The notes: generated by a model not told the origin, from the sequence alone. Numbered from the stretch's first letter, positions 16,911-50,829 are shown. The stretch: DNA of 64,000 nt from Bacteroidaceae bacterium (GCA_017559845.1 JAFYQQ010000023.1:1-64000), one strand, 5' to 3'. Program-made: numbers and translations.

Positions 16911-19028
16911 TTATACGAGGTCTACGCGGCCCTTGATTTCCTCCAATACTGCCTTGGCGATACCAGAGCTAACGGGAGCATGGTGATCGTAGGTCATTGA
17001 AGATGTTGCACGACCAGAAGTGATGGTACGCAATGCAGTTACATAACCGAACATCTCGGCCAGGGGAACCATTGCCTTAACCAGACGGGCACCAGTACGA
17101 GTGGTATCCATACCTTCTACCTGTCCACGACGCTTGTTCAAGTCACCGATAACGTCACCCATGTTTTCTTCGGGAGTAACAACCTCCAACTTCATTATGG
17201 GCTCCATCAAAACGGGCTTAGCCTTGGCGCAGCAAGCCTTGTAAGCCATCTGGGCTGCGATTTCAAATGACAACTGGTCAGAGTCTACGGGGTGGAATGA
17301 ACCATCAACGAGCTCAACCTTCAGGCTGTCCATGGGGAATCCACCGAGAACACCGTTCTTCATAGCGGCATCAAATCCCTTCTGTACGCTGGGGATAAAT
17401 TCCTTAGGAATGTTACCACCGGTAACGCTGTTGATGAACTGCAAGGGAGTTTCGTTATAATCCTCATCGCGGGGACCTACGTTAACAATAATATCAGCGA
17501 ACTTACCGCGACCACCAGACTGCTTCTTGTAAACCTCACGGTGGTTAACAGTGGCGGTGATAGCTTCCTTATAGTTAACCTGGGGCTTACCCTGGTTACA
17601 TTCAACCTTGAATTCACGCTTCAGACGGTCGATGATAATATCCAAGTGAAGCTCACCCATACCTGAGATAACGGTCTGACCGCTCTGCTCATCAGTCTTA
17701 ACTGTAAAGGTGGGATCTTCTTCAGCCAACTTAGCCAAGCCGTTAGACAGCTTGTCGAGGTCCTTCTGAGTCTTGGGCTCTACTGCGATACCAATAACGG
17801 GATCGGGGAAGTCCATAGACTCCAGTACGATGGGTGCATCCTCATCACAGAGGGTATCGCCGGTACGGATATCCTTGAAACCTACACCTGCACCGATATC
17901 ACCAGCTGTGATTTCCTCTACGGGATTCTGGTGGTTAGAGTGCATCTGGAACAGACGGCTTACACGCTCCTTCTTACCAGAACGGACATTGAATGTATAT
18001 GAACCGGCAGCAATCTTACCAGAGTAAACACGGAAGAAGGTCAGACGGCCAACATATGGATCGGTTGCAATCTTGAACGCAAGAGCAGAAGTCTTTTCAT
18101 CCTCACTGGGCTTACGCTCCTCATCCTCGCCTGTATCGGGATTTGTACCGATGATATTGGGAGTATCCAGAGGAGAAGGCAAGAACATACAAACATAGTC
18201 AAGCAGAGTCTGTACACCCTTGTTCTTGAAAGAAGATCCACAGGTCATGGGAACGATATCGAGTGCCAGGGTACCCTTACGGATAGCAGCTACGATTTCC
18301 TCTTCAGTCAAGCTGTCGGGATCCTCGAAGTACTTCTCCATCAGCGTGTCGTCCTGCTCTGCAGCCAGCTCAATCATCTTGCCGCGCCACTCTTCACACT
18401 CATCAGCCATGTCTGCAGGAATATCCTCTACGCTGTATTCTGCACCCATAGTCTCATCGTGCCACAGGATAGCCTTCATCTTAATCAGGTCTACGATACC
18501 CTTGAAGTTTTCTTCAGCACCGATGGGCACTGCCACAACACAGGGAGTAGCGCCCAAGATTTCCTTCATCTGGCGTACAACCTCGAAGAAGTCAGCACCA
18601 GAACGGTCCATCTTGTTTACATAACCGATACGGGGAACATTGTACTTGTCAGCCTGGCGCCATACGGTTTCAGACTGAGGTTCAACACCACCCACAGCAC
18701 AATATGTTGCAACTGCACCGTCGAGCACACGCAGTGAACGTTCTACCTCAGCGGTAAAGTCAACGTGTCCCGGAGTGTCAATCAGGTTGAACTTGTACTT
18801 GTTACCATTCCATGTCCAGAACGCAGTTGTAGCAGCAGAGGTAATGGTGATACCACGCTCCTGCTCCTGAGCCATCCAGTCCATTGTTGCAGAACCGTCA
18901 TGGGTTTCACCGATCTTGTGAGTCTTACCGGTGTAGAAAAGAATACGCTCTGAAGTTGTTGTCTTACCGGCATCGATGTGAGCCATAATACCGATATTAC
19001 GTGTCAAGAGAAGATCTTGCTTTGCCAT
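16911..19028 (-). CDS. fusA: Elongation factor G
   Basis: A 705-residue EF-G that drives translocation by GTP hydrolysis. The G domain shows [15 protein letters not shown] (G1), the switch-[10 protein letters not shown] and NKMD; domains II-V follow, with the domain-IV end [19 protein letters not shown]. The neighbourhood (rpsL-rpsG-fusA) marks it as the canonical EF-G rather than a paralogue such as EF-G2. The tuf gene that follows fusA in E. coli is absent here and lies at 54043-55230. Confidence 0.98.
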
Positions 19029-25622: not shown

Positions 25623-26333
25623 ATGACATTCGCAATCATTTCCGCCGGAGAAGGCTCACGACTCTCGCAAGAGGGAGTGGCACTACCCAAACCACTTGTC
25701 CGTCTGAACGGCACAGCCATGATTGACCGTCTGATACAGATTTTCACTCGCAACGGCGCAGACAAGATAGTTGTCATCATCAACAACGAAACGCCTCAGA
25801 CAAAAGCGCATCTGCTGAAGCTGCAGGAAGAGTGGCCCATTCCGGTGGAACTGGTCGTTAAGACCACACCCAGTTCCATGCACAGCTTTTACGAACTGAG
25901 CCAGTTCCTTACCGATGACAAATTCTGTCTGACTACCGTAGACACCATCTTCCGCGAAGAGGAGTTCTCCCGTTTCATCACCTTCTTCAAGGAATCAGAT
26001 GCCGACGGCTGCATGGCCGTTACAGACTATATCGACGACGAGAAGCCCCTCTACATTTCCACCGATGAAAAGTTGGACATCACCGGATTCCATGATGCCA
26101 TAACACCGGAATGCAAATACATATCAGGCGGCATCTACTGTCTCACCCCGCCAGCCATAAAGACACTTGAGTACTGCATGGCTACAGGCATGTCCCGAAT
26201 GAGGAACTTCCAACGGCAATTGGTTGCAGACGGATTGCACCTGAAAGCATATCCCTTCCACAAGATTGTGGACGTGGACCATGCGGAAGACATAAAGAAA
26301 GCCGAGGCGTTCTTGATTGGAATAGATTCGTAA
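25623..26333 (+). CDS. Nucleotidyltransferase of the MobA/GlmU-like NTP-transferase fold
   Basis: A 236-residue protein with the NTP-transferase signature at its start: ISAEG-like loop GEGSRL, then LPKPLVRLNGTAMIDRL. The metal-site Asp is likely that of LTTVDTIF; a late VDVDHAEDIKKAE matches the closing motif of sugar-phosphate/alcohol-phosphate nucleotidyltransferases. It would join an NTP and a phosphorylated sugar or polyol. The downstream CDP-alcohol phosphatidyltransferase suggests a CDP-activated product (for example CDP-inositol), but neither nucleotide nor sugar is determined by the sequence. It is 3 bases from the ATP-grasp gene. Confidence 0.8.
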   Translation: MTFAIISAGEGSRLSQEGVALPKPLVRLNGTAMIDRLIQIFTRNGADKIVVIINNETPQTKAHLLKLQEEWPIPVELVVKTTPSSMHSFYELSQFLTDDKFCLTTVDTIFREEEFSRFITFFKESDADGCMAVTDYIDDEKPLYISTDEKLDITGFHDAITPECKYISGGIYCLTPPAIKTLEYCMATGMSRMRNFQRQLVADGLHLKAYPFHKIVDVDHAEDIKKAEAFLIGIDS

Positions 26334-26336
26334 AGG

Positions 26337-27188
26337 ATGAAGAGTACAAGAATCATCGGTATCAGCAGAGGAAGCCAATACTCTCCCAACCACATAGGAA
26401 ACGACGCAGCCATTTTCAACCGGGTAACCGAAGAACTGCGCACTATGGGGCACACCGTAGAGACATATACCGAGAAAGAATTTACAGAGAGCGGTGCAGA
26501 AAGCGCCGTCATCTATGGCATGGCACGCGACACCGCCACACTGGAAAGGTTAAGGATTTTGGAAGACAAGGGCGCAGTGGTCATCAATTCGGCTTACGGA
26601 ATTGACAACTGCATACGCAAGGCCATGACCATGTTGCTCACAAGCCACGATATACCTCACCCCGACAGTCTGATCGTTTCCACGGCTGTCCCTTATTCCG
26701 GACAGCACTTACCCTGTTGGATAAAGCGGGGAGATTCGCACGCCATTTTGAAAGAAGACGTATCCTATGCCGCCACACGCGAAGAGGCAGACGCCATCCT
26801 TGCCAGTTTCCGGCAAAGAGGCATTGCCGAAGCGGTGGTGAACGAACATCTGCAAGGCGACCTTGTAAAGTTCTATGGTGTGCGGGACACCGGATTCTTC
26901 CACTGGTTCTACCCTGACCCTTCCGCACACAGCAAGTTCGGTCTGGAAAAGATAAACGGCAGAGCCAAAGGCATCTGCTTTGACGAAGAGAGGTTGAAAG
27001 CATATAGCGACAAGGCGTCCAGAGTTCTGGAGGTTCCCGTCTATGGCGGCGACTGCGTGGTAACTCCCAACGGCGACATAAAAATCATAGACTTCAACGA
27101 CTGGCCCAGTTTTGCATGCTGCCGAGACATGGCAGGAAAGAAAATAGCGGAATACATCCACAACATGGCCATAAAACAAGAAAAATGA
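26337..27188 (+). CDS. ATP-grasp (RimK-like) ligase, substrate unknown
   Basis: A 283-residue protein with features of an ATP-grasp enzyme: a nucleotide-binding Lys region (PCWIKRGDSHAILKED), a hinge Glu (VVNEHLQGDLVKFYGV) and the C-terminal Mg-binding IKIIDFNDWPSF with the DxN pair. The N-terminal domain starts GISRGSQYSPNHIGND. Enzymes of this fold join a carboxylate to an amine or similar group using ATP. Lying between a nucleotidyltransferase and a CDP-alcohol phosphatidyltransferase with an ATGA overlap, it may modify the lipid headgroup or its precursor. Fold assignment is good; function is open. Confidence 0.7.
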   Translation: MKSTRIIGISRGSQYSPNHIGNDAAIFNRVTEELRTMGHTVETYTEKEFTESGAESAVIYGMARDTATLERLRILEDKGAVVINSAYGIDNCIRKAMTMLLTSHDIPHPDSLIVSTAVPYSGQHLPCWIKRGDSHAILKEDVSYAATREEADAILASFRQRGIAEAVVNEHLQGDLVKFYGVRDTGFFHWFYPDPSAHSKFGLEKINGRAKGICFDEERLKAYSDKASRVLEVPVYGGDCVVTPNGDIKIIDFNDWPSFACCRDMAGKKIAEYIHNMAIKQEK

Positions 27189-28129
27189 ATACAAATACAA
27201 AGAAAAGCGATTTCAGGGCTTCATTCAAGTCCATGGACACAGAAGAGCTACTAGACATCTACACCAACCGCCCCATCGGATACGTTTGGGCCAAGTTATT
27301 TGCAAAGGCAGGAATACACCCCAACGTGGTCACCATACTGTCCATCATTCTGGGCATGAGTGCAGGAGTCATGTTCTATTATCCCGACATGAAGCACACA
27401 ATCATTGGCATCCTGCTGCTGATGTGGGCCAACCATTACGACAGCGCAGACGGGCAACTGGCACGCATGACCGGCAAGAAGACCTTGTGGGGACGCATGC
27501 TTGACGGTTTTGCCGGCGACCTTTGGTTTTTCAGTATCTACTTTTTCATCTGCCTGCGACTTACCCCTCAGCCCATCCCCTTTCTGCCCGACACGGAATG
27601 GGGCATCTACATCTGGCTGTTAGGCGCCATTGCAGGCCTCATCTGCCACACCCGCCAATGTATGCTGGCAGACTATTACCGAAACATACACCTGTACTTC
27701 CTGAAGGGGAAGTCGGGCAGCGAACTGGACAATTTCAAGCAACAGCGTGAAGCATTCCACAACCTGCCATGGAAAGGAAACGTGTGGTGGAAACTGTTCC
27801 TCTACTTCTATGGCAACTACACACGCAAGCAAGAGAAGTCCACTCCTAACTTCCAACGCTTCTACGCCTTGGTGAGGGATAAATTCGGAGACGACATTCC
27901 GCAAAGCCTGCGCGACGAGTTCCGTGCCGCAAGCAAGCCCCTGATGAAATACACCAACATCCTTACGTTTAACACGCGTGCCATTGTGCTGTACATCAGT
28001 CTGCTCATTGGACAGCCCTGGCTGTACTTCCTGTTTGAGGTTACTGTGCTGACAAGCCTTTACCTCTACATGCACAACCGACATGAAGCGCTGAGCGCAC
28101 GCCTTTATCATAAATACAGAAACGCATGA
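27185..28129 (+). CDS. CDP-alcohol phosphatidyltransferase family protein
   Basis: A 314-residue membrane protein with the CDP-AP motif at about residues 93-119: DSADGQLAR, eight residues, G-RML-D. The last Asp of the classical motif (Dx3D) is displaced by one (LDGFAGD), an odd feature. Several hydrophobic segments follow, for example LLGAIAGLICH and LYISLLIGQPWLYFLF. The family moves a phosphoalcohol between CDP and an acceptor (as in PI or PG-phosphate synthesis) at the inner membrane. The start MNTNTKKS overlaps the preceding stop (ATGA); a longer upstream reading would lie inside the ATP-grasp gene. Likely the key lipid-forming step of the cluster. Confidence 0.85.
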   Translation: MNTNTKKSDFRASFKSMDTEELLDIYTNRPIGYVWAKLFAKAGIHPNVVTILSIILGMSAGVMFYYPDMKHTIIGILLLMWANHYDSADGQLARMTGKKTLWGRMLDGFAGDLWFFSIYFFICLRLTPQPIPFLPDTEWGIYIWLLGAIAGLICHTRQCMLADYYRNIHLYFLKGKSGSELDNFKQQREAFHNLPWKGNVWWKLFLYFYGNYTRKQEKSTPNFQRFYALVRDKFGDDIPQSLRDEFRAASKPLMKYTNILTFNTRAIVLYISLLIGQPWLYFLFEVTVLTSLYLYMHNRHEALSARLYHKYRNA

Positions 28130-29130
28130 CAAACAAACTGAGAAACCTCTTTCTGGGCATCGGCCTTGCCGCCGTCATTGTCATGCTATGCACGTTCGAC
28201 GTGGAATCGGACGAATTGTGGAACGGACTAAGGCGTGCCGGTCTGTGGTTGCCCGCCATCATCATCCTATGGGCATTCATATACCTGATGAACGCCATCG
28301 CATGGCATCTGATTGTCCGCGACGGGGCTTCAAACCGTGTCCCCTTCTGGTTTACCTACAAACTGACCATATCGGGGTATGCGCTGAACTATGCCACACC
28401 TGTGGGACTGATGGGCGGAGAACCTTACAGAATCATGGAACTTTCGCCTTATGTGGGAAAAAGCAAGGCGGCATCTTCAGTCATCCTCTATGCCATGATG
28501 CACATCTTCTCCCACTTTATCTTTTGGCTGTTCTCCATCCTACTCTACCTTCTGTTCTACCCCATCAATGCAACTATGGCCACGTTGCTTGCGCTAACCG
28601 GCGCATTCTGCCTGCTTGCCATCTACTTTTTCATGCAGGGCTATAAGAACGGCATGGCCATGCGCACACTGCGCCTGCTCGGACGCATCCCTCTCGTCAA
28701 GAAATGGGCTGTTCCCTTCACCCAGAGAAAGCAAGAGACGTTAGAACGGGTGGACCAGCAAATTGCCGAACTGCACAGACAACGGCGGACCACCTTCTAT
28801 GCGTCTTTGGGACTGGAATTCCTGGCGCGGATTGTGGGCTGCCTGGAAGTCTATTTCATAATGAACATCCTTACCACAAACGTCAGCTTCACCGCCTGCA
28901 TACTCATTGTGGCATTCACCTCGCTGTTTGCCAACATTTTCTTCTTCTCGCCCCTCCAGATGGGAACGCGCGAAGGAGGGTTCGCCCTTTCCACCGGCGG
29001 ACTGTCCATCCCCAGCGCCTTTGGGCTTTATACAAGCCTCATCACCCGGGTGCGGGAACTTGTATGGATTATCATAGGCGTCCTGCTGATGAAAGTGGGC
29101 AATGGCAAACATAACAACAACAAAAAATGA
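28126..29130 (+). CDS. Lysylphosphatidylglycerol-synthase-type transmembrane (UPF0104) protein
   Basis: A 334-residue integral membrane protein with seven or eight hydrophobic segments and family blocks such as SGYALNYATPVGLMGGEPYR and FFSPLQMGTREGGFALS. This flippase-like domain occurs in MprF (N-terminal part) and in stand-alone YbhN/AglD-type proteins. The soluble aminoacyl-transfer domain of MprF is missing. With the lipid-synthesis neighbour it may move the product across the inner membrane. ATGA overlaps exist on both sides. Confidence 0.8.
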   Translation: MTNKLRNLFLGIGLAAVIVMLCTFDVESDELWNGLRRAGLWLPAIIILWAFIYLMNAIAWHLIVRDGASNRVPFWFTYKLTISGYALNYATPVGLMGGEPYRIMELSPYVGKSKAASSVILYAMMHIFSHFIFWLFSILLYLLFYPINATMATLLALTGAFCLLAIYFFMQGYKNGMAMRTLRLLGRIPLVKKWAVPFTQRKQETLERVDQQIAELHRQRRTTFYASLGLEFLARIVGCLEVYFIMNILTTNVSFTACILIVAFTSLFANIFFFSPLQMGTREGGFALSTGGLSIPSAFGLYTSLITRVRELVWIIIGVLLMKVGNGKHNNNKK

Positions 29131-29852
29131 ATACACTTAAAGACATTAAAGGTGTCATCTTTGACTATGGTGGCACTATAGACACAAACAGCCGCCACTG
29201 GGCAGAAGTCCTGTGGGAGAAATACAGAGAGAGCGATATTCCCGTCAGCAAAGAAGCATTCCGCGAGGCATACGTCCACGGCGAACGCTCGTTAGCAAAA
29301 TTTCCCCACGTGAAACCAGAGCACAATTTCCGGGATGTATTAAGCATCAAGACCCGGATACAAATGGAGTATCTAGCAGAAAAAGGCTGTCTGCTGGCAG
29401 AAGAAGCGTTGCTGCAAGACTATGCCGAAAAGGTAACAGATCTTTGTTATGGATATGTACTGAAAGTTCTGGAACGCACACGTCCCATTGTGGAACAACT
29501 GGCTGGCCGACTACCGTTGGTACTCGTTTCCAACTTCTACGGAAACATAGAAACAATACTAAACGATTTCGGACTTTCCAAACACTTCGGCCACATCATT
29601 GAATCTGCTGTAGTGGGCGTACGCAAGCCCGACCCTGCCATTTATCAATTGGGAGTGGACGCCATTGGGCTTCCTGCCGGAAACGTACTGGTGGTAGGCG
29701 ATTCCTTCTCAAAAGACATTGTGCCGGCAAAGGCCGTAGGATGCCAGGCCGTATGGTTGAAAGGAGAAGGATGGGGAGGTGAAGAGACGGATGACAACTT
29801 GCCGGATGCCATCATCACCGATATGACACAACTACCCGTTTTACTTGCATAA
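29127..29852 (+). CDS. HAD-superfamily hydrolase, subfamily IA-like
   Basis: A 241-residue HAD protein. Motif I reads VIFDYGGTID: the nucleophile Asp is present but the usual second Asp (general acid, DxD) is Gly. Motif II Ser (LVLVSN), motif III Lys (VGVRKPDP) and motif IV (VVGDSFSKDIV) are intact. In the cluster it could remove a phosphate from a polyol- or lipid-phosphate; the DxG motif leaves room for a different activity. The start overlaps the preceding stop (ATGA). Confidence 0.8.
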   Translation: MNTLKDIKGVIFDYGGTIDTNSRHWAEVLWEKYRESDIPVSKEAFREAYVHGERSLAKFPHVKPEHNFRDVLSIKTRIQMEYLAEKGCLLAEEALLQDYAEKVTDLCYGYVLKVLERTRPIVEQLAGRLPLVLVSNFYGNIETILNDFGLSKHFGHIIESAVVGVRKPDPAIYQLGVDAIGLPAGNVLVVGDSFSKDIVPAKAVGCQAVWLKGEGWGGEETDDNLPDAIITDMTQLPVLLA

Positions 29853-29865
29853 ACCCAGAAGGACA

Positions 29866-31083
29866 ATGGAAAAGAAACACGCACACGCTCTGGTACGCAA
29901 GGAGTACCTTCTTCCTTTCATACTTGTTACTTCCCTCTTCTTTATGTGGGGTTTTGCCCGCGCCATTCTGGACGTACTGAACAAGCATTTCCAGGAAGCG
30001 TTGGACATCAGTCTGGCTCATTCTGCAATGATACAGGTCATGTTCTATCTGGGCTATTTTACTATGGCCATTCCCGCTGGTCTGTTTATCGCCCGTAACG
30101 GTTATCGCAGAGGAGTAGTGCTCGGCCTGTTACTGTTCGGCATCGGCTCGCTCATGTTCATTCCGGGGGAATACTATATGTCGTTCAATTTCTTCTTGTT
30201 CTCATTGTTTGTCATCGCCTGCGGGCTGGTGTTCCTTGAAACGGCGGCCAATCCCTATATGACAGAGTTGGGTGAAAGGGAAACCGCTGCAAGCCGTCTC
30301 AATCTGGCCCAGTCATTCAATGGTTTGGGCTGCGCCTGTGCGCCGTTGCTGGTGGGTATGATTGTGTTCTCAGAAGACCAGGACGCCAACATTTCCCTTC
30401 CATATACGATAATGGGAGTGGTGGTACTGTGCGTCGCACTCATTTTCTCAAAGGTAAGGCTGCCCGAAATTGCACACGCAAAGGATGACTCCTCAATACC
30501 GGAAAAGAAGAAAGGGTTATGGTCTCAGAAACTTTTCACATTCGGCCTGTTGGCGTTGTTTTGTTACGAAATTGCCGAGATTTCCATTAACAGCTTCTTT
30601 ATTAATTATGTAGTGGACGATGGATGGATGAACGCGCGCGAAGCATCGGCCATGCTTTCTTTCGGAGGACTTGGGCTGTTCATGTGCGGCCGTTTTGCCG
30701 GCAGCTGGATTATGCGTTACATCAAGGCTGAAAAGGTGCTGTTCTACTGCGCAATCGGCACAGTAATCACCACCGCAATGGTTGTCCTCAACCTTGGTCT
30801 GTTCTCGTTCGTAGGATTGATTCTCATCTACGTATTCGAGGCCATCATGTTCCCCACCATCTTTGCCATCGCTCTGCGCGGACTGGGAGACTATACCAAA
30901 CGTGCCTCATCCTATCTGATGATGACGCCCATCGGCGGTGCTGTGGGTCCCCTGCTGATGGGATTTGTGGCAGACCAGACCAACATGTCCGTATCCTTCA
31001 TCGTACCGTTGGTTTCCTATGTGGTGGTTTGGGCTTATGCGACAAAAGTCTTGAAGAACGGCGAAAAGTCTGTTTTTGCATAG
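29866..31083 (+). CDS. FucP-like major facilitator transporter
   Basis: A 405-residue, 12-TM transporter of the fucose-galactose-glucose:H+ symporter (FHS/FucP) family. Family blocks: FFMWGFARAILDVLNKHF, FLETAANPYMTELG and ASRLNLAQSFNGLGC. It should import a sugar or polyol across the inner membrane. MEKKHAH at 29866 is preceded by a weak AGAAGGA. Its stop codon (TAG) is the first base triplet of the 42-bp repeat array, so the array begins exactly at the end of the gene. Substrate unknown; myo-inositol is my guess from context. Confidence 0.85.
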   Translation: MEKKHAHALVRKEYLLPFILVTSLFFMWGFARAILDVLNKHFQEALDISLAHSAMIQVMFYLGYFTMAIPAGLFIARNGYRRGVVLGLLLFGIGSLMFIPGEYYMSFNFFLFSLFVIACGLVFLETAANPYMTELGERETAASRLNLAQSFNGLGCACAPLLVGMIVFSEDQDANISLPYTIMGVVVLCVALIFSKVRLPEIAHAKDDSSIPEKKKGLWSQKLFTFGLLALFCYEIAEISINSFFINYVVDDGWMNAREASAMLSFGGLGLFMCGRFAGSWIMRYIKAEKVLFYCAIGTVITTAMVVLNLGLFSFVGLILIYVFEAIMFPTIFAIALRGLGDYTKRASSYLMMTPIGGAVGPLLMGFVADQTNMSVSFIVPLVSYVVVWAYATKVLKNGEKSVFA

Positions 31084-31440
31084 GTGCAGCGCTGCATCTG
31101 CTTCGAAATTGCAGTTTCGACATAGGTGCAGCGTTGCATCGGTCTCGAAATTGTAATTTTGACGAAGGTGCAAAGCTGCTTGAACGATGAAATTACGATT
31201 TTGACATAGGTGCAGCGCTGCAACTGTCTCGAAATTGCGATTTCGACCTTCACGCAACGCTGCATCGGCCTCGAAATTGTAATTTTGGCGAAGGTGCAGA
31301 GTTGTTTGAACGATGAAATTCGGATTTTTGCATAGGTGCAGCGCTGCATCGGCCTCGAAATTGCGATTTCGACCTTCATGCAACGCTGCATCGGCCTCGA
31401 AATTGTAGTTTTGACGAAGGTGCAAAACTGCATCTGCCTT
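31080..31440. repeat. 42-bp tandem repeat array with 126-bp higher-order period
   Basis: Eight full units of exactly 42 bp (starting at 31080, 31122, 31164 and so on) and a ninth of about 25 bp. Units fall in three kinds in the order A-B-C three times: A begins ATAGGTGCAGCGCTGCA, B ends CTCGAAATTGTAATTTTG, C contains GAACGATGAAATT. Most A units hold two palindromes, TGCAGCGCTGCA and TCGAAAT-TGCG-ATTTCGA. The array runs from the stop codon of the FucP-like gene to the stop codon of the convergent kinase gene and leaves no other intergenic DNA. Two minus-strand frames stay open because 42 is a multiple of three. Confidence 0.92.
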
Positions 31441-32323
31441 AAGGCCGTTGACCGCTGTTGACAATCTGCTGGATATCCTCCTCCGTTCCGCAGAAGGGGC
31501 CGGAATGCTCCAACTTTAACGTGGACATGGCGGCGGCAAAACAACCGGACTCGTAGCAAGAGCACCCTTTATTGCGCATATACAAATAACCGGCCATGTA
31601 AGTGTCGCCACAACCTGTTGCATCCACTACTTCACGAGGCGCGTAAGCCGGAATGCGGCAGAACTCGCCTTGGGCATAAATGAGAGAGCCCAGACTGCCC
31701 TGGGTAATGATTACTTCCTTCACCCCCCAACTGGCCAGGCACTTGGCGGCAAGTTCAGGGTCGTCGTAACCGGTAAGGACTTCCATTTCGTGCTCGTTTA
31801 CCTTCAGTATGTCCACATAACGCAATGCCTCCAATTTTTCCGTCCAGTCCACAGGATAAACATTCTCTCCACGCACCTCGCGCAGATAGCCCTGCGCATC
31901 CACGGACACGATTCCCTTTGCAGAAAGGTGTCGGATTACATCAAGTGAAAAATCATCGGCAAGGAGGCTACCCAGATGGAAGATATGCGCCTCTACGTCA
32001 ATTAGGCCTTCAACGGTAAAGGGGTCGGCCTTGGCCAGCACACGCTGTGTTCGGTTATCTTGATTCTCGCCATAAACGTTTTCGAAATAGACAGAGAACT
32101 GGCTGGGGAGCACTTTTACAAGTATTCCTTTCTTGCGGATTTCCTCCACAGCGGAGAGTTCAGACTCCGCCAACGCTGTTATCAGTTCATAACGGTCTGC
32201 ATCGTTAAGGCAACTAATGCCATGCGAGAAGTAATAGGATGTGCCGCCAGGCATATAGGTTGTCTGCCGGGGCGTTACAATCTTATCCAACGTGATATGG
32301 CCTATACAACAAATTTTCTTCAT
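31439..32323 (-). CDS. PfkB-family carbohydrate/polyol kinase
   Basis: A 294-residue ribokinase-like kinase. The N-terminal KKICCIGHITLDKIV and the PGGTSYYFS block, and the C-terminal signature VDATGCGDTYMAGY with its catalytic Asp, define the PfkB family. The stretch VSVDAQGYLREVRG resembles that of plant myo-inositol 3-kinases more than that of fructokinases, as judged from memory. MKKICC at 32323 is the start; an upstream frame adds residues unlike the family. It converges on the FucP-like gene, making an uptake-plus-phosphorylation pair plausible. Confidence 0.85.
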   Translation of the reverse strand: MKKICCIGHITLDKIVTPRQTTYMPGGTSYYFSHGISCLNDADRYELITALAESELSAVEEIRKKGILVKVLPSQFSVYFENVYGENQDNRTQRVLAKADPFTVEGLIDVEAHIFHLGSLLADDFSLDVIRHLSAKGIVSVDAQGYLREVRGENVYPVDWTEKLEALRYVDILKVNEHEMEVLTGYDDPELAAKCLASWGVKEVIITQGSLGSLIYAQGEFCRIPAYAPREVVDATGCGDTYMAGYLYMRNKGCSCYESGCFAAAMSTLKLEHSGPFCGTEEDIQQIVNSGQRP

Positions 32324-32375: not shown

Positions 32376-34973
32376 TCAAAAGGAAAACTCCAAAGCCCCT
32401 CTTATGCCCCACCGTTGCATGCCGGGCGTATGATAGTTGAGACGGTGGACGTACTCCAAACGCACAATCTTGAACACGTTATGGATGCCCGCCACAATCT
32501 CCACATAAGGTTTGTGCGGATTCATCACACGAGTCATGTATTCGAAGCCGTTATCGTTCGTGAAGGAACCTGGAAAATAAAACAAATCCTTGTCGCCTGC
32601 GTTCTGGGGGAGATAGGGGTTGTTTCTGTCAGTCAGGGTTCCCCACAGCACATTGCAACCAATATTCTCACGCCACTTCAGTTCGCGCAACAGGGGAATG
32701 CGGTTGAAGAGCTTTCCATTAAGATCCCAATTAAGAATAGCCGAGGCATAACGGTCGTTCAGGAATTCCATGTTACGGATGAGTCTGAACGAACGCGTGT
32801 CTATGATATAGCTCAAATTGGATGCCGGCATAATGAGGAAAGGATACGGCACCTTGTTCCATTGCGCACCGGCTTTTGCCAACACATCAAGCTTGCCCCA
32901 GGAGCGCATCCAGAAGCGTTTGTAAACCGATGCTTCCGTGAAGTTATATCTGTACTCACCCCCGAAGACTCCTTTCAAGCCCATTGTGTGCTGCAGACCG
33001 AAGATGGGGGCGTCAAGATTGGTGACAAGACGGCGCTGCTTGGTGTTCACATAACTGGCATTGGGGCGGAACTGCAGTCCTAAAGTCGCCTCTGAAAATG
33101 CCAGTCTCTTCAGATGGGAGGCAGGGTCTGCGGAAGGTAGTCCTTCGGCGTCCAGCGGTTGGTAGAACAAGTCGCCAGCACCCTCATTACGTTCGTGACG
33201 GAACTGCACGGTGGCGCGCAAGCCGTTGTGCCATTCCTTGTCATACATCAGGTTATAGCGTTCAAAATAGTTCATGTGCTTTACCGGTGTCCATTTCCAT
33301 GCCACAAATACATTGTCCTTGTCAGTAGACAGAAACTTGTCGCTCGGCGAGGCCACATCATTCATATACGTGAACGTAAGGTTGTTTACAGGAAACTCGC
33401 TGGGCACATATTCCTTGGCATTGAAGGAATAAGTCAGCTCGCCCATCCCCTTCCATCTCTGATCGCCGAATCCGTACTTCACATAACCCTTGGCAAAAAG
33501 GTGTCTGTGAAGATTTGCGGTAGTCTGCGCACTGGCACGCAGTCGGAACCCCTCCACCCAGTTGCTTCCAATCATCGTGTTGATTGGGCCTATATCCACG
33601 AGGTTAGGCTTACCGGGCTTTACAGTGGTCTCCACATAATTCTCAATGAAAGCCTTAGCAATCCAAATAATGGGGCGGAATCCCCTTATCCCTTGCATCT
33701 TGTGCAACATGTTTCCCATGCCCTGCTCACTACGGGACAAGGGTACGGGACGCTGCTCTTGCCAGTATTCATCTGAACGCGTACGGGCAGAAGCCTCTGT
33801 ACGTGTCTTTGTCTCTCCACGGAAAAGGCGGTCGGGGATTGGGCTGAAATCATAATCGAAGCCATGCGTTACGCGCTCGGCCATTATCTTTTGCACTCCG
33901 TCCACGAGTTTCAACTGCAGAATCATCTTGTTTTCCACCACAAGCTGCTCGCCCGAGGGCAAGGAGTCAAAATCCTGCACAATATCCATCTTTTCCACAA
34001 AGTTCACATCACTACGTGTAGGGATGCCAATCTCTGCTCTGCGGAGCCGCCATGAAGAGTCGGCACGCACATAAAGAGAACCGGAGAAACCGAAGTCCTG
34101 AGGATTATTAGGAGTGAAGTTCAGCCTATAGCATCGGTCATGCCCCACATTCAGGGTATCGACAATAAAATAGCGGTAAAAGCCGATGGCTGATGAGGTG
34201 CTTAGCGGACTGATAAAGGGATATTGCAGCAAGCGCACCTGGTCTTGATAAAAGTCCACCTCGGTGATACAGTCTTCAAGCAAGACATTCATAATTTCAC
34301 CTGTGTTGAACAAGTCATTGATGCCCTCACTACGTTCAGCCTCAATAAGCAGTTTTTCCTCCTGCGGTTGCCTGCGGTAGAGCGTGCGGGTGATACGTTC
34401 GCTGACGGTAAGCGGCAAAATAAGCTTACCCGTTTCCGGGTGTACCTCTACATGATCCTTCAGAAAAGGCATGCTCTTGAACTGCCCTTCTTGAAACACC
34501 TTTTCCGTAAACTCATTCAGGGAAAAAGTGAGTTTCTCATACTTGCGGAAAGACAGGAAATCGCGATTGCGCAAATCGGCACCTCCCTTAGCTGCAATGA
34601 CCTTCTTCATCATCTCTACTGCAGGATTGTCCTTTCGCGAATACTTCTTACGCTTGGCCTCAACTCTGACTTCATCAAGAGAAGCGCTGGACTCGCGCAA
34701 TTTCACATCAAGTTTCTGGGGTTTGGAAACTGCAACCATCTTCGTTTCAAAACCCATCATGGAGAAAACGAGCTGGCCCTTGCGGTAACGGATGCGGTAA
34801 TTCCCCTCCAAATCGGCTTGGGTAGCCGTGTGCGTTTGTCCTTCGTAATACACATACGCAGTAGGCAAAGGCTCACCTGTTGCCGCATCAGTGACCCGTC
34901 CCTGCACATACTGAGCCAGGGAAGATGCCACGCAAAGCACCCATGACATATAAAGGAGGAAACATCTTTTCAC
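32376..34973 (-). CDS. DUF5686 outer-membrane protein with carboxypeptidase-regulatory-like domain
   Basis: An 865-residue protein with a signal peptide (MKRCFLLYMSWVLCVASSLA), then a CarbopepD_reg_2/CNA-B-like domain at about residues 22-100 (VQGRVTDAATGEPLPTAYVYY ... GNYRIRYRKGQLVFSMMGFE). The long remainder matches the DUF5686 pattern (KRKKYSRKDNPAVEMMKKVI; NFTPNNPQDFGFSGSLYV) and ends in alternating, aromatic-rich strands with a C-terminal Phe (GALEFSF), typical of an outer-membrane beta-barrel. Function unknown; commonly near envelope genes in Bacteroidetes. A -7 element lies 36 bases upstream. Confidence 0.85.
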   Translation of the reverse strand: MKRCFLLYMSWVLCVASSLAQYVQGRVTDAATGEPLPTAYVYYEGQTHTATQADLEGNYRIRYRKGQLVFSMMGFETKMVAVSKPQKLDVKLRESSASLDEVRVEAKRKKYSRKDNPAVEMMKKVIAAKGGADLRNRDFLSFRKYEKLTFSLNEFTEKVFQEGQFKSMPFLKDHVEVHPETGKLILPLTVSERITRTLYRRQPQEEKLLIEAERSEGINDLFNTGEIMNVLLEDCITEVDFYQDQVRLLQYPFISPLSTSSAIGFYRYFIVDTLNVGHDRCYRLNFTPNNPQDFGFSGSLYVRADSSWRLRRAEIGIPTRSDVNFVEKMDIVQDFDSLPSGEQLVVENKMILQLKLVDGVQKIMAERVTHGFDYDFSPIPDRLFRGETKTRTEASARTRSDEYWQEQRPVPLSRSEQGMGNMLHKMQGIRGFRPIIWIAKAFIENYVETTVKPGKPNLVDIGPINTMIGSNWVEGFRLRASAQTTANLHRHLFAKGYVKYGFGDQRWKGMGELTYSFNAKEYVPSEFPVNNLTFTYMNDVASPSDKFLSTDKDNVFVAWKWTPVKHMNYFERYNLMYDKEWHNGLRATVQFRHERNEGAGDLFYQPLDAEGLPSADPASHLKRLAFSEATLGLQFRPNASYVNTKQRRLVTNLDAPIFGLQHTMGLKGVFGGEYRYNFTEASVYKRFWMRSWGKLDVLAKAGAQWNKVPYPFLIMPASNLSYIIDTRSFRLIRNMEFLNDRYASAILNWDLNGKLFNRIPLLRELKWRENIGCNVLWGTLTDRNNPYLPQNAGDKDLFYFPGSFTNDNGFEYMTRVMNPHKPYVEIVAGIHNVFKIVRLEYVHRLNYHTPGMQRWGIRGALEFSF

Positions 34974-42708: not shown

Positions 42709-45700
42709 TTAGTATTCCATGTCATCAAGCACTGCCTTGCGGTGTGCTGCCACACGTTCAAAGTCTTCGCGGTTTCCGACAACAATCTTATCGAACTCGC
42801 GCAAACCAGTTCCAGCAGGGATGAGGTGACCGCAGATTACGTTCTCCTTCATACCTTCCAGACGGTCGCTCTTGCCGTTGATGGCGGCTTCGTTGAGCAC
42901 CTTGGTGGTTTCCTGGAAGGACGCGGCAGACATGAAGCTGCTTGTCTGCAATGCTGCACGAGTGATACCCTGAAGAATCTGGGTTGAAGTGGCGGGCATA
43001 GCATCACGCACCTGAACAAGCTTCAAGTCCTTACGCTTGAGCATAGAGTTCTCGTCACGCAGTTTTCTTGCGGTAACAATCTGGCCCTTCTGCATGTTCT
43101 CAGAATCTCCGGCATCCACAACGACCTTCTTGCCCCAGATCTTGTCATTCTCTTCAAAGAAGTCGAGCTTGTCCACCACCTGCAGTTCCAGGAAGTTGGT
43201 GTCGCCGGGTTCATTGATCTGAACCTTGCGCATCATCTGACGTACAATGACCTCGAAGTGCTTGTCGTTAATCTTTACACCCTGCAGACGGTATACGTCC
43301 TGAATCTCATTTACGATATATTCCTGAACGGCTGTGGGACCCTTGATGGCCAGGATGTCAGCAGGAGTGATGGCACCGTCGGACAGGGGAGTTCCGGCAC
43401 GAACATAGTCGTTTTCCTGTACCAGAATCTGCTTGCTCAGAGGCACGAGGTACTTGCGTACATCGCCAACCTTGCTGGTAACAGTAATCTCGCGATTTCC
43501 ACGCTTCAGCTTGCCCATGGTAACCTCTCCGTCGATTTCTGAAACCACAGCGGGGTTGCTGGGGTTACGGGCCTCAAAGAGTTCGGTAACACGGGGCAGA
43601 CCTCCGGTAATGTCACCGCCACCACCAACAACACGAGGAATCTTAACCAGTACATCACCGGGCTTGACAACCTGATTGTCCTCGATGACAATATGTCCAC
43701 CGATAGGCAGGTTGTAGGTACGGATCAGTTCACCGTTTTCATCCAGAACGTGTGCGGCAGGCACCTTGTTCTTGTCGCGGGACTCAATCACGATAAGTTC
43801 GCGCAAACCGGTTGTTTCGTCGGCTTCAACACGATAAGTTACACCTTCGATTACATTCTCGAACTTGATGCGTCCGGCAGCTTCGGTAACGATTACAGCG
43901 TTGAAGGGGTCCCACTTGGCTACCACTTCACCCTTAGTTACCATATCTCCGTCCTTCTTATACAATGTACATCCGTAGGGAATGTTCTGGCTCAGCAGGA
44001 TAATTCCGGTGTTTACGTCCACAAAGCGGACTTCGGCCAAACGGCCTACAACCGTCATGGCAGCCTTGCCCTCATCGTCTGTAATGTCCACAGTACGCAA
44101 TTCTTCAAACTCCAGACGTGCGTCATACTTGGCCTTAATCATGGCATTTGCCGCTGCATTACCGGCCACACCACCGGCGTGGAACGTACGCAGAGTAAGC
44201 TGGGTACCGGGCTCACCAATTGACTGTGCAGCGATGACACCTACAGCCTCACCCTTCTGAACCATACGACTGGTGGCGAGATTGCGACCGTAGCACTTCA
44301 TACATACACCGCGCTTGCTTTCGCAGGTAAGCACAGAACGGATTTCCACACTTTCAATGGGGCTTTCCTCAATTTCCTGTGCCTTTGCTTCTGTAATCTC
44401 ATCACCGGCAGCACAAATGAGCTTTCCTGTTGTGGGATGAATGATATCGTGAACGGAAACACGTCCGAGGATTCTGTCATAGAGGCTGCTGATAACCTCG
44501 TCACCGTTCTTCAGAGCGGTGCAGACAAGTCCGCGCAAGGTTCCGCAGTCTTCTTCATTGATAATCACATCATGACTTACGTCAACAAGACGACGTGTCA
44601 AGTATCCGGCGTCGGCAGTTTTCAAGGCGGTGTCGGCAAGACCCTTACGGGCACCGTGGGTACTGATGAAGTATTCAAGCACGCTCATACCTTCCTTAAA
44701 GTTAGAAAGAATGGGGTTCTCAATGGTCAGAGGTTCGGCACCTGCCTTCTGGGGCTTGGCCATCAGACCACGCATACCAGACAACTGGCTGATCTGACCG
44801 GCACTACCACGGGCTCCAGAATCGAGCATCATGTACACGGCATTGAATCCCTGGTCGGCCTCTTTCATTGTCTTCATCAGAATGGCAGAAAGGTCGTTGT
44901 TAACGTGGGTCCAAGTGTCAATAACCTGGTTGTAACGTTCCTTGTCTGTGATGAAACCCATTCCGTATTCAGAAGCAATACGCTCGATTTCCTCGTTACC
45001 CTTACGGATGAGTTCTTCCTTTTCTTCGGGAATGATAATGTCGCCCAAGTTGAATGAAAGTCCGCCTTCGTAAGCAAGTCTGTAACCCAAATCTTTAATA
45101 CCATCGAGGAATTCGCAAGCACGGGCCACACCTACTGTCTTGATAACGTCTGTGATGATGCCACGCAAGGTTTTCTTGGAAATCACATCATTGAAATAAC
45201 CCACTTCTTTGGGAATAATTTCATTGGCAATTACACGGCCTACTGATGTTTCCACCATGCGCTTGCCCAATGTGCCGTCTTCCATCAGGTCATCAACGAT
45301 TACCTGAACAGGGGCATGCACATCGACACGCTTTTCGTTATATGCGATGATAGCTTCTTCGGGACCATAGAACTTAAGACCGGCTCCCTTGGCTCCGGGA
45401 CGAATCTTTGTAATGTAATACAATCCGAGCACCATATCCTGTGAAGGCACGGTAATGGGGGCACCGTTGGCAGGGTTCAAAATATTATGCGACTGCAACA
45501 TGAGCAGCTGGGCCTCCAAAATGGCCTCGTTACTCAAGGGCAGATGGACTGCCATCTGGTCACCGTCAAAGTCGGCATTGAACGCTGTACATGCCAGAGG
45601 ATGGAGCTGGATGGCCTTTCCCTCGATCATCTTGGGCTGGAACGCCTGGATACCCAGACGGTGCAGTGTGGGGGCACGGTTAAGCAATACGGGGTGACCC

Positions 45701-46995
45701 TTCATTACATATTCCAGGATATCCCAAATGATGGGGTCTCTTCTGTCAACAATTTTCTTGGCGCTCTTTACGGTCTTCACGATTCCGCGCTCAATCAGTT
45801 TGCGGATTACAAAAGGCTTGTAAAGTTCTGCAGCCATGAGTTTGGGCAGACCACACTCGCCCATCTTCAACTCGGGACCAACAACGATAACCGAACGGGC
45901 AGAATAGTCTACACGTTTACCGAGAAGGTTCTGACGGAAACGTCCTTGTTTACCCTTGAGGGAGTCAGAGAGAGACTTCAGAGGACGGTTGGAGTCGGTC
46001 TTCACAGCACTGCTCTTGCGGCTGTTGTCAAACAAGCTATCCACAGCTTCCTGAAGCATGCGCTTTTCATTACGCAGAATTACTTCGGGGGCCTTGATTT
46101 CCATCAGTCTCTTCAGACGATTATTGCGGATAATCACTCGACGATAAAGATCATTCAAGTCGCTGGTTGCGAAACGACCGCCATCAAGAGCAACCAAAGG
46201 ACGCAGTTCGGGTGGAATAACCGGCAGAATACGCATGATCATCCATTCTGGTTTGTTGCGTTCACGGCTGTTGCGGAAGCTTTCCACTACCTGCAGGCGC
46301 TTCAGCGCTTCAGTCTTGCGCTGCTGTGCGGCATCGCTACCGGCAGTATCGCGGAGCTGATATGAAAGTGAGTCCAAATCAATACGAGTCAGAAGGTCAT
46401 AAATTGCCTCTGCACCCATCTTGGCAATGAACTTATTGGGGTCTGAATCCTCCAAATAAGCATTGTTTGAAGGCAGACGGTCCTGAATTGCCAGGTATTC
46501 ATCCTCAGAAAGCAAATCATATTCTGCAACGGGCATGTCCTTGTCCTTTGCCATTACACCAGCCTGGATTACCACATAGCGTTCATAGTATATGATAGCA
46601 TCAAGCTTTTTGGTGGGCAAACCTAAAAGATAACCTATCTTGTTAGGCAAAGAACGGAAATACCAAATATGAGCTACGGGTACCACCAGCTGGATGTGAC
46701 CGCTACGCTCACGGCGTACCTTCTTTTCGGTTACCTCTACACCACAACGGTCACAAACGATTCCTTTATAACGGATACGCTTGTACTTTCCGCAATGACA
46801 TTCATAGTCTTTTGTCGGACCAAAGATGCGCTCGCAGAACAAACCGTCGCGTTCAGGCTTGTAAGTACGGTAATTGATGGTCTCGGGTTTGAGCACCTCT
46901 CCGTAAGAATCCTCCAAGATCTTTTCTGGAGAAGCCAAACCAATGGTAATCTTAGTAAAGTTATTTTTTACCTTTGTTTCTTTCTTGAAAGCCAT
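42709..46995 (-). CDS. rpoC: RNA polymerase beta-prime subunit
   Basis: A 1428-residue beta-prime. The N-terminal zinc site (ECHCGKYKR ... [10 protein letters not shown]), the catalytic Mg loop [12 protein letters not shown], and the second zinc site ([15 protein letters not shown]) are all visible, as is the trigger-loop region [18 protein letters not shown]. Length is normal for Bacteroidetes. It is 21 bases behind rpoB. Confidence 0.99.
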
Positions 46996-47016
46996 AATTA
47001 TTGATATTTACAAGTC

Positions 47017-50000
47017 TTAATCCAATGTTACACTCAATCCCAGGCCACGCAGTTCGTGCAGAAGCACGTTCAAAGATTCGGGAATACCAGGTGTGGGCAT
47101 GGGTTCACCCTTAACGATAGCCTCATATGCCTTGCTGCGACCTACAACATCGTCACTCTTGACAGTAAGGATTTCCTGCAATACATGACTTGCGCCGAAG
47201 GCTTCGATTGCCCAAACTTCCATTTCTCCGAAACGCTGTCCACCGAATTGTGCCTTACCACCCAAAGGTTGCTGTGTAATAAGTGAGTACGGTCCAATGC
47301 TACGGGCATGCATTTTGTCTTCAACCATATGACCCAACTTAAGCATGTAGGCGATACCTACTGTTGCCAACTGGTCGAAGGGCTCGCCAGTTGCACCATC
47401 ATACAGCTGTGTTGAGCAATAACGGGGCAGTTCAGCTTTGTCAGTCCATTCGTTCAAGTCTTCAAGATGTGCTCCATCGAAAATGGGAGTAGCAAACTTG
47501 ACACCCAACTTGCGTCCAGCAGCACCGAGAACGGTCTCGAAAATCTGACCGATATTCATACGAGAAGGCACACCCAGGGGGTTCAACACAATATCTACGG
47601 GTGTTCCGTCTGCCAAGAAAGGCATATCCTCCTGGCGTACGATCTTGCTGACAATACCCTTGTTTCCGTGGCGTCCAGCCATCTTGTCTCCCACACCAAT
47701 CTTACGTTTCTTGGCAATATAAACCTTAGCCATCTGGATGATACCAGAGGGGAGTTCATCACCGATTGTGATAGCAAACTTGCGACGCTTCATTTCTGCA
47801 TCCAACAACTTGAATTTCTTCAAATAGTTGATTATTAGCTTGCTTATCAGTTCATTGGCATGTTCATCGTTTGTCCAGCCGCTCAGCTGAACAGCGGTAT
47901 AGTCAAATGTATCAAGAGCACTAGCGGTAATATTGGCACCCTTTGCTATCAGCTCGGCACCCATATAATCCTTGACTCCCATGCTCTTAAGTCCCTTTGT
48001 CAATTCAAGAAGTTTGTCAATCAGAATCGCCTTCAAGTCGGCAACCTTTGTCTTGAACTCATCATCAATAGCGAGCAGGCGAGGCTTATCCTGTGCCTTA
48101 GCTGCACGTGTCTTGATGGCACGGGAGAACAATTTCTTGTCAATTACCACACCGCTCAAAGAAGGACTTGCTTTCAAAGAAGCATCCTTAACGTCACCGG
48201 CCTTGTCACCGAAGATGGCACGAAGCAATTTTTCTTCGGGGCTGGGGTCGCTCTCTCCCTTAGGTGTAATCTTACCAATCATGATATCACCGGGAGAAAC
48301 ACGGGCACCGATACGGATAATACCATTCTCGTCCAAATCCTTTGTGGCTTCTTCGCTCACATTGGGAATGTCAGAAGTAAGTTCTTCCATACCACGCTTG
48401 GTCTCGCGAACTTCCAAGTTGAACTCTTCAACATGAATACTTGTAAGAATGTCTTCGCGTACCACACGTTCGTTCAACACGATGGCGTCCTCATAATTGT
48501 ATCCCTTCCAAGGCATATATGCCACCAAAAGGTTCTTACCCAAAGCCAATTCTCCGTTCTCTGTACTATATCCTTCTGTCAGAATCTGACCCGCAACAAC
48601 TCTGTCTCCCTTATTAATAATGGGACGGAGGTCAATGGTCATGTTTTGATTGGTACGACGGAACTTGGGTATGCGGTATTCTTTAAGAGAGGGTTCAAAA
48701 CTTACAAACTCTTCGTCTTCAGTGCGGTCATACAGAATGCGGATGGTTGTTGCATCAACGTACTCAACAACACCATCACCTTCGGCTGTAATCATGGTAC
48801 GGCTGTTCTCACATACTTGACGTTCGATACCTGTACCAACAATCGGAGCTTCTGAACGCATCAAAGGAACTGCCTGGCGCATCATGTTAGAACCCATCAA
48901 CGCACGGTGGGCATCATCATGCTCCAAGAAGGGGATGAGACCAGCAGCTATACTTGCAATCTGCTGCGGTGCCACGTCCATCAAGTCTACATCAGATGGG
49001 GGAACCACTGGGTAATCGTCATCCTGGCGACACTTAACCTTGGTACGGATAAATGTTCCATCTTCATTCAAAGGAGCATTACCCTGGCCGATGATCTGAC
49101 CTTCCTCTTCTTCTGCAGTCAAGTAGCGGATTCCTTCATCACTCAGATCCACGACACTATCCTTAACGACACGATAAGGAGTTTCAATGAAACCAAGATC
49201 ATTAATCTTTGCGTATACACACAATGAAGAAATCAAACCGATATTTGGGCCTTCAGGGCTTTCGATAGGACAAAGGCGGCCATAATGAGTATAGTGTACG
49301 TCACGAACCTCAAAACCGGCACGTTCACGGCTCAAACCACCAATACCAAGAGCTGAAAGACGACGCTTGTGTGTTACCTCAGCCAATGGGTTGGTCTGAT
49401 CCATAAACTGGCTCAAGGCATTCGTTCCAAAGAAACTGTTGATTACACTACTGATGGTTTTAGCGTTAATCAAATCTGCAGGTGTGAACACTTCGTTGTC
49501 ACGAACATTCATGCGTTCGCGAATAGTACGGCTCATACGAGCCAGACCTATTGCAAACTGATTGCTGAGCTGCTCACCTACGGTACGAACGCGTCTGTTA
49601 CTCAAATGGTCAATATCATCGACATTGGCTTTACTGTTAACCAATTCAATGAGATACTTGATAATTTCAATAATGTCCTCACGAGTCAGTACGCGCACTG
49701 CTGGATCAATGTCCATATTCAGCTTGCGGTTGATGCGGTAGCGACCAACATCGCCCAAGTCATAACGTTTGTCACTGAAGAAGAGGTTGAAAATTACTTC
49801 TTTTGCACTGGCATCGTCAGCAGGATCAGCGTTTCTCAATTGGCGGTAGATATAAGTAACAGCTTCCTTTTCACTATTACTTGTATCCTTCATCAAGGTA
49901 TTGAAGATTGTGCTGTAATCTGAACTGCCGCTTGATTCTTTGTGGATGAGGATAGTACTTACATTGCTATCGAGGATGATTTCAACAACATCTTCATCAA

Positions 50001-50829
50001 TGAGACGTTCACGCTCAAGAACCACTTCGTTGCGCTCTATAGAAACCACTTCACCGGTTTCTTCGTCTACAAAGTCTTCATTCCATGTTTTCAGGACACG
50101 AGCGGCCAACTTATGTCCGATATGTTTCTCGATATTTTTACGGGTAACCTTAACTTCTTCTGCAAGGTCAAAAATCTCAAGAATATCTTTATCAGACTCA
50201 TATCCGATTGCTCTTAACAGAGTGGTCACTGGCAACTTTTTCTTACGGTCAATGTAAGCATACATGACGTTATTGATGTCGGTAGCAAATTCAATCCAGC
50301 TACCCTTAAAAGGAATGATACGCGCACTATACAATTGCGTACCGTTAGCATGTATGCTGCTTCCGAAGAAAACACCAGGTGATCTATGCAACTGAGAAAC
50401 CACAACGCGCTCAGCACCATTAATCACAAATGTACCGTTATCTGTCATATAGGGAATGGGACCCAGAAAAACATCCTGGATCACAGTGTCAAATTCAACA
50501 TGGTCAGGGTCGGTACAATATAATTTCAGTTTTGCCTTCAAAGGCACACTGTATGTGAGACCTCGTTCAAGACACTCATCAATTGTGTAACGAGGGGGGT
50601 CAATATAATAATCCAAGAACTCCAGAACGAAGTTATTCCGGGTATCATTTATAGGGAAATTCTCACTGAATACCTTATACAAGCCATCGTTCTTACGAAG
50701 TTCTGGTGGTGTATCTAATTGTAGAAAATCCTTGAAGCTCTTTAGCTGCACATCCAAAAAATCTGGATATGGCATAGGATTTTTGACTGTTGCGAAATTA
50801 ACTCGCTGATTAATGATGTGTGAAGCCAT
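47017..50829 (-). CDS. rpoB: RNA polymerase beta subunit
   Basis: A 1270-residue beta subunit. The rifampicin region reads [20 protein letters not shown] then [15 protein letters not shown]: the Asp, His and Ser of the main resistance sites are wild type, while Ile replaces the Pro found in E. coli after LG. The C-terminal blocks [20 protein letters not shown] and [13 protein letters not shown] are typical. A hairpin with T-run separates it from rplL. Confidence 0.99.

Follow-up and report, generated by a model that had tools for sequence, protein, structure and literature searches.

How does a bacterium that appears equipped to build inositol lipids obtain its inositol phosphate when no gene is found for the enzyme that makes it? 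This question is raised by a compact locus at positions 25,623–32,323 of a 64,000-nucleotide stretch from a gut Bacteroidaceae bacterium (GCA_017559845.1 JAFYQQ010000023.1:1-64000), which as a whole is called the window hereafter. The locus consists of a plus-strand operon of six genes (25623–31083), encoding a nucleotidyltransferase (NTPT), an ATP-grasp protein, a CDP-alcohol phosphotransferase (CDPAP), an MprF-type membrane protein, a HAD-superfamily protein and a FucP-like transporter of the major facilitator superfamily (MFS), and of a PfkB-family kinase gene that converges on it (31439–32323, minus strand). We propose, with a probability of roughly 0.75, that these genes form a salvage-fed inositol-lipid pathway, in which lipids would be built from inositol taken up from the surroundings. 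What the sequence itself offers is gene content, homology, the displacement of myo-inositol-phosphate synthase (MIPS), conserved binding residues and an enrichment of the kinase among genomes.

The displacement becomes apparent when homologous operons are compared, mostly in metagenome-assembled genomes (MAGs). In related Bacteroidales, the usual gene order is NTPT, ATP-grasp, CDPAP, in some cases the flippase, HAD and MIPS, with MIPS directly following HAD in most of the loci read. In the window locus and in three further genomes (G032, G518 and G006), the MFS and PfkB genes follow HAD in the MIPS slot, and the same arrangement is found in Phocaeicola oris (L146), Bacteroidales RUG12482 (L147) and Prevotellaceae UBA1720 (L193); in G477, a DUF5686 gene intervenes between HAD and MFS, with MFS and PfkB lying beyond it. 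That MIPS occupies this very place in the homologous operons supports the initial annotation of this DNA, according to which importer and kinase would take over from MIPS by providing a phosphorylated polyol. Additionally, two Phocaeicola-like genomes (G534 and G503) join all the parts in a single locus, running from NTPT through ATP-grasp, CDPAP, flippase and HAD to MFS, followed by a converging PfkB gene and then MIPS, and G294 and Phocaeicola faecium carry MIPS and PfkB side by side in divergent orientation. No gene adjoins the PfkB kinase family more often than the window-type MFS (22 loci), a different MFS being found in 11. The ATP-grasp gene is near-constant in the cluster, the MprF-type flippase gene is kept in that of many relatives, and a DUF5686 gene adjoins it in many loci. 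The grouping is not a product of chance, since tens of Bacteroidales genomes show the identical order. In L051, the open reading frame (ORF) that follows MFS had looked like a possible kinase gene but is not one; the kinase of that genome adjoins its MIPS.

The initial annotation had noted the absence of MIPS from the window, and searches with PF01658 and PF07994 extend it to the whole source genome (3.06 Mb), an absence that is strong but not absolute, given a completeness of 92.9%. MIPS is likewise missing from the kinase-bearing genomes G032, G518, G006 and G017 and from the 99%-complete G325 and G388. As another source of inositol, a MINPP-type phytase was sought in the source genome and in close relatives, and none was found in those searched; such phytases are present in the Phocaeicola-like G294 and G534 and in G456 and G477.

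The distribution of the kinase follows the same pattern. Specifically, in a sample of the family (211 genomes), the ATP-grasp/NTPT genes occur in 138 genomes, MIPS in 142 and the kinase in 38. Among the 138 cluster-bearing genomes, 12 of the 18 without MIPS have the kinase, versus 18 of the 120 with MIPS (Fisher p 1e-5), and so do 8/9 of the MIPS-less ones that are at least 90% complete. In a sample of the order (393 genomes), the kinase is found in 5/6 MIPS-less and 8/45 MIPS-bearing cluster genomes (p 0.003), and the sixth MIPS-less genome, G306, carries a divergent PfkB gene directly after HAD. In the kinase tree, the window protein falls into a group of 12 rows, 10 of which show physical linkage to the cluster or to MIPS (support 88/85, not starred), and cluster linkage is also seen in a separate group (L041, L193). 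Mucilaginibacter, Chitinophaga and related soil Bacteroidota also encode close kinases, at sites outside the lipid cluster (L173, L174, L178, L185, L189, L194–L198, L201, L205, L209, L214, L216 and L217).

The kinase itself (PF00294, 2e-23) has TM0415 (1e-29, residues 4–287) and MI3K_TK (residues 4–271) as its best solved relatives, other PDB matches extending over little or nothing beyond the C-terminal (donor) half. TM0415 depends on pyrophosphate (PPi) and acts as a myo-inositol 1-kinase, and MI3K_TK is a myo-inositol 3-kinase that uses ATP (PMC5931981). The inositol contacts D11, N78, Q141 and R145 of TM0415, together with its catalytic D234, are conserved in 109–110 of 110 homologues and correspond to D13, N82, Q144, R148 and D240 in the window kinase. 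The PPi signature of TM0415 (K171, F221, R229, R232 and M266) reads K, Y, A, C and L in the window kinase; a PPi-dependent kinase was therefore rejected, R229 and R232 being replaced by Ala and Cys. Because the PPi-specific residues are missing while the inositol contacts are kept, ATP is the likely donor, and we propose that the window PfkB is an ATP-dependent myo-inositol kinase replacing MIPS. In addition, S89 of TM0415 is Gln in the window kinase, and a homologue with Gln at this position gave a product other than Ins(1)P (PMC5931981); the substitution fits, without proving, formation of Ins(3)P, the product of MIPS. The suggestion of the initial annotation that the polyol is possibly inositol thus gains from the nearest solved kinases, from the loci that join MIPS, importer and kinase, and from the enrichment among MIPS-less cluster genomes.

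The operon also encodes candidates for the activation and transfer of the headgroup. NTPT (25623–26333, plus strand; NTP_transferase PF00483, 1.9e-13) has as its best NCBIfam match the L-myo-inositol-1-phosphate cytidylyltransferase fusion NF041135, well below the cut-off of that model, and the profile of its family matches the cytidylyltransferases IPCT (2xme, 4mnd), IMPCT (4jd0) and LicC (1jyk). Residues R13, K23 and D107 of NTPT correspond by motif position to the critical R16, K26 and D112 of Thermotoga maritima IMPCT and are conserved in 65 homologues. NTPT is thus likely to act as a CTP:inositol-phosphate cytidylyltransferase making CDP-inositol. The predicted lipid-headgroup transferase CDPAP (27185–28129, plus strand; CDP-OH_P_transf PF01066, 1e-11) gives a model whose best fold matches are AF2299 (Z 19.1) and the IPCT-DIPPS structure 4mnd (Z 16.9), ahead of phosphatidylinositol phosphate (PIP) synthases (Z ~14) and choline phosphotransferases (Z 10–12.5). 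Its profile, too, matches IPCT/IPCT-DIPPS enzymes. Its motif (window 27440–27525) contains D86xxD89GxxAR and, further on, G103xxxD107, that is, D1, D2 and D3. The MprF-type protein that follows (28126–29130, plus strand; LPG_synthase_TM PF03706, 1e-28) is a possible lipid flippase.

Several observations weigh against a salvage-fed pathway. The Fisher tests ignore phylogeny and relatedness, 6/18 MIPS-less cluster genomes lack the kinase (five of the six being less than 90% complete), and many members of the PfkB kinase family lie outside any cluster. Across the family sample, the association between kinase and cluster is not significant (30/138 versus 8/73, p 0.06), and support is therefore drawn only from the kinase enrichment in cluster genomes that lack MIPS. 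In CDPAP, the full D1xxD2GxxAR(x)nGxxxD3xxxD4 motif is incomplete, with G111 in the D4 column and D112 next to it; because nearly all relatives examined (L030–L243) have Gly at D4 and Asp or Asn one residue later, the replacement is a trait of the CDPAP family. The alternative inositol-lipid cluster to which the operon is related below was itself called putative, as was its production of PI-DAG/PI-DHC, its published pathway being unproven and none of its enzymes assayed (Heaver et al. 2022, PMC9246714). Finally, the MFS protein (29866–31083, plus strand) passes the NCBIfam cut-off for the L-fucose:H+ symporter (TIGR00885 fucP, 301 bits versus 280), and the FucP residues are kept, D46 and E135 of Escherichia coli FucP aligning with D36 and E125; its import of inositol is proposed from context only.

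The last point bears on a different explanation of the locus, according to which MIPS would lie in the 7% of the genome that the sequence does not cover and the MFS and PfkB genes would be a catabolic or unrelated pair, for instance for L-fucose or another sugar, beside the operon. Besides the match to fucP, the incomplete assembly and the many PfkB and MFS pairs apart from the cluster speak for it. However, the six kinase-bearing relatives named above, two of them 99% complete, also lack MIPS, and the kinase is enriched precisely in MIPS-less cluster genomes. Moreover, fucose catabolism is not known to use a kinase of the PfkB type. We consider a hidden MIPS beside an unrelated pair to be quite improbable, and a plain catabolic use of the pair less likely than salvage.

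The affinity of TM0415 for myo-inositol is weak (Km 12 mM), and its authors doubt that this is the genuine acceptor (PMC5931981), which adds to the points against. Importer and kinase might supply the same lipid pathway with another polyol, such as a keto-inositol or a different isomer of inositol, yielding a headgroup other than myo-inositol. Related homologues of TM0415 gave mixed products, and some PfkB relatives adjoin IolG-like dehydrogenases. Such a substrate is nevertheless improbable, since the residues that contact the acceptor in the two solved inositol kinases are conserved, MIPS, the enzyme exchanged for kinase and importer, has inositol phosphate as its sole product, and MIPS and kinase stand side by side in some loci. 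The neighbouring IolG-like proteins are GFO/IDH/MocA dehydrogenases (L132, L137, L192 and L199, including Tannerella MAGs), and this proximity suggests another use of inositol by members of the kinase family.

The role of the ATP-grasp protein (26337–27188, plus strand) is less apparent. It has no Pfam match and gives weak RimK-type matches in NCBIfam, and its AlphaFold2 (AF2) model (pLDDT 92) adopts the ATP-grasp fold. With the family profile, 8 PDB sequences are matched at E values up to 1, 6/8 of them being inositol polyphosphate kinases of the ITPK type (best 1e-5). Its invariant residues include D239 and the Asp-x-Asn metal motif D252-x-N254, which favours a kinase, and by metal motif and profile the protein may be a second inositol or inositol-phosphate kinase. 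The Pfam ITPK family matches none of 30 family members at E 0.1. The initial annotation had called it an ATP-grasp ligase; the ATP-grasp assignment holds, whereas the ligase part is put in question, as the D-x-N motif and most of the profile matches are those of inositol polyphosphate kinases. If the protein were a ligase that attaches amino acids to the headgroup or another acceptor, the inositol product would be aminoacylated or carry some other decoration. In its favour, the overall fold is closest to the RimK/LysX/ArgX ligases (Z 21–22 versus 19.7 for ITPK1), and weak RimK matches are found among family members in Pfam as well as in NCBIfam. Yet several ATP-grasp families share this fold, so that differences in Z decide little, and the second metal ligand is Asp, as in the matched ITPKs, whereas ArgX and PsnB have Glu; we regard a ligase as unlikely.

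The HAD protein (29127–29852, plus strand; PF00702, 1e-18) carries FDYGGT as motif I, in which D13 is conserved and the +2 position is Gly instead of the second Asp of the phosphatase DxD. Because the +2 Asp is missing, a role as a plain phosphatase is uncertain, and the earlier proposal that this enzyme trims a phosphate becomes doubtful. A CDP-activated Ins(3)P would lead to a D-3-linked headgroup, and a second kinase together with a phosphatase would allow D-1 linkage. We raise, as a tentative and on balance doubtful extension, two successive inositol kinases: PfkB would make Ins(3)P from imported inositol, a product that MIPS supplies elsewhere, the ITPK-like ATP-grasp protein would add a second phosphate, giving for example meso Ins(1,3)P2, and activation followed by removal of the 3-phosphate would yield a eukaryote-like D-1 headgroup. 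If so, this would be a bacterial ITPK-type kinase in lipid synthesis, and it would explain why the kinase and HAD are kept together.

Returning to the salvage-fed pathway, we infer each reaction and its place in the sequence, what the importer takes up and which lipid results, as follows. The FucP-like symporter would import free inositol, and the PfkB kinase would use ATP to convert it into an inositol monophosphate, probably Ins(3)P. NTPT would then combine the inositol phosphate with CTP to give CDP-inositol, from which CDPAP would pass the phosphoinositol group on to an acceptor lipid. Translocation of the product lipid may fall to the MprF-like protein, HAD would act after or together with the transferase, and the ATP-grasp protein would most likely be a second kinase, with inositol phosphate, CDP-inositol or the headgroup of the lipid as its substrate. 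Gut inositol lipids have so far been seen mainly as de novo products, and the operon leads to the prediction that host or diet supplies the lipid inositol of some gut Bacteroidaceae. A bacterial surface lipid would thereby be coupled to nutrition, with the kinase and importer in the absence of MIPS as a genetic marker.

The gene calls underlying this picture agree with the initial annotation, all seven genes being located at its coordinates and identified by Pfam and NCBIfam (the ATP-grasp fold by the AF2 model), and its tight spacing is recovered as well, with 4-nt ATGA overlaps at 27185, 28126 and 29127 and gaps of 3 nt between NTPT and ATP-grasp and 13 nt between HAD and MFS. A tandem repeat array detected by Tandem Repeats Finder (TRF) lies between importer and kinase (31074–31439; 366 bp, period 42, higher-order period 126), and its reading frames yield spurious ORFs such as 30907–31464. 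Next to the kinase gene lies a DUF5686/carboxypeptidase-regulatory-like gene for an outer-membrane-type protein resembling BT_1527 (32376–34973, minus strand; PF18939 and PF13715). The rpoC and rpoB genes (42709–50829) are ~8 kb from it, and an EF-G gene lies at 16911–19028; because of these neighbours, the operon is placed in a conserved chromosomal region.

Related loci show further variants. NTPT and ATP-grasp are fused in proteins of several genomes (L030, L035, L036 and L037), and at L095:7437-9899 a single 820-aa frame unites NTPT, ATP-grasp and CDPAP, followed by a flippase, by HAD and by a divergent member of the MIPS family (PF01658). At L089:6037-7263, a gene for a TIR-domain protein immediately follows the cluster HAD gene. 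Additionally, a paralogous CDPAP cluster (L099–L109) has partners of ~364, 155 and 242 aa, often with a flippase, and lacks ATP-grasp and an adjacent MIPS.

Among known systems, the pair of Archaeoglobus IPCT-DIPPS and Thermotoga IMPCT shares with the operon the combination of cytidylyltransferase and CDP-alcohol transferase, as the matches to 2xme, 4mnd and 4jd0 indicate; there, CDP-inositol leads to the soluble solute di-inositol phosphate, whereas the operon encodes separate proteins and presumably makes a lipid. The window kinase shares full-length homology and the inositol-contact residues with TM0415 and MI3K_TK, and differs from TM0415 in lacking R229/R232 and in having Gln for S89, and from both in its linkage to lipid genes. 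With ITPKs, the ATP-grasp protein shares the metal motif D...DxN..PSF and the best PDB profile matches, and it is set apart by the missing Pfam ITPK match, low identity and its place in a bacterial lipid operon. The BT_1522–BT_1526 pathway of Bacteroides thetaiotaomicron has the same proposed class of end product and BT_1521-like and BT_1527-like neighbours, but proceeds through CDP-diacylglycerol (CDP-DAG), a PIP intermediate and a PIP phosphatase, and includes MIPS; for its lipids, this species draws very little inositol from outside (Heaver et al. 2022, PMC9246714).

The initial annotation invoked the inositol phospholipids of gut Bacteroides, but did not name the closest precedent, a putative alternative cluster in Phocaeicola (Bacteroides) vulgatus and Prevotella, which contains MIPS, an NTP transferase, a CDP-alcohol phosphatidyltransferase and HAD, with LPG-synthase-like and carboxypeptidase-regulatory-like genes nearby (named genes BVU_RS13095, 13105 and 13115; PMC9246714). 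MprF-type/LPG-synthase-like homologues were noted near both Bacteroidetes inositol-lipid clusters, and the main text mentions no ATP-grasp gene, transporter or inositol kinase (PMC9246714). In the part of the literature covered, we found no paper linking this kinase, importer or ATP-grasp gene to bacterial inositol lipids. The window operon shares with that cluster the grouped NTP transferase, CDP-alcohol phosphatidyltransferase and HAD genes and the flippase-like and carboxypeptidase-regulatory-like neighbours. The spacing of the BVU locus tags would fit exactly two extra genes, ATP-grasp and flippase, as lie between these genes in Phocaeicola-like genomes. Unlike the published cluster, the window operon has no MIPS and carries the FucP-like importer and the PfkB kinase instead. 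Judged by gene order and protein families, with the same order found in Phocaeicola-like genomes, the operon is this putative alternative cluster, salvage genes having taken the place of MIPS; its proposed salvage-fed variant is new, and the inositol kinase and the ATP-grasp enzyme, both absent from the published description, are two candidates for missing steps of the alternative pathway.

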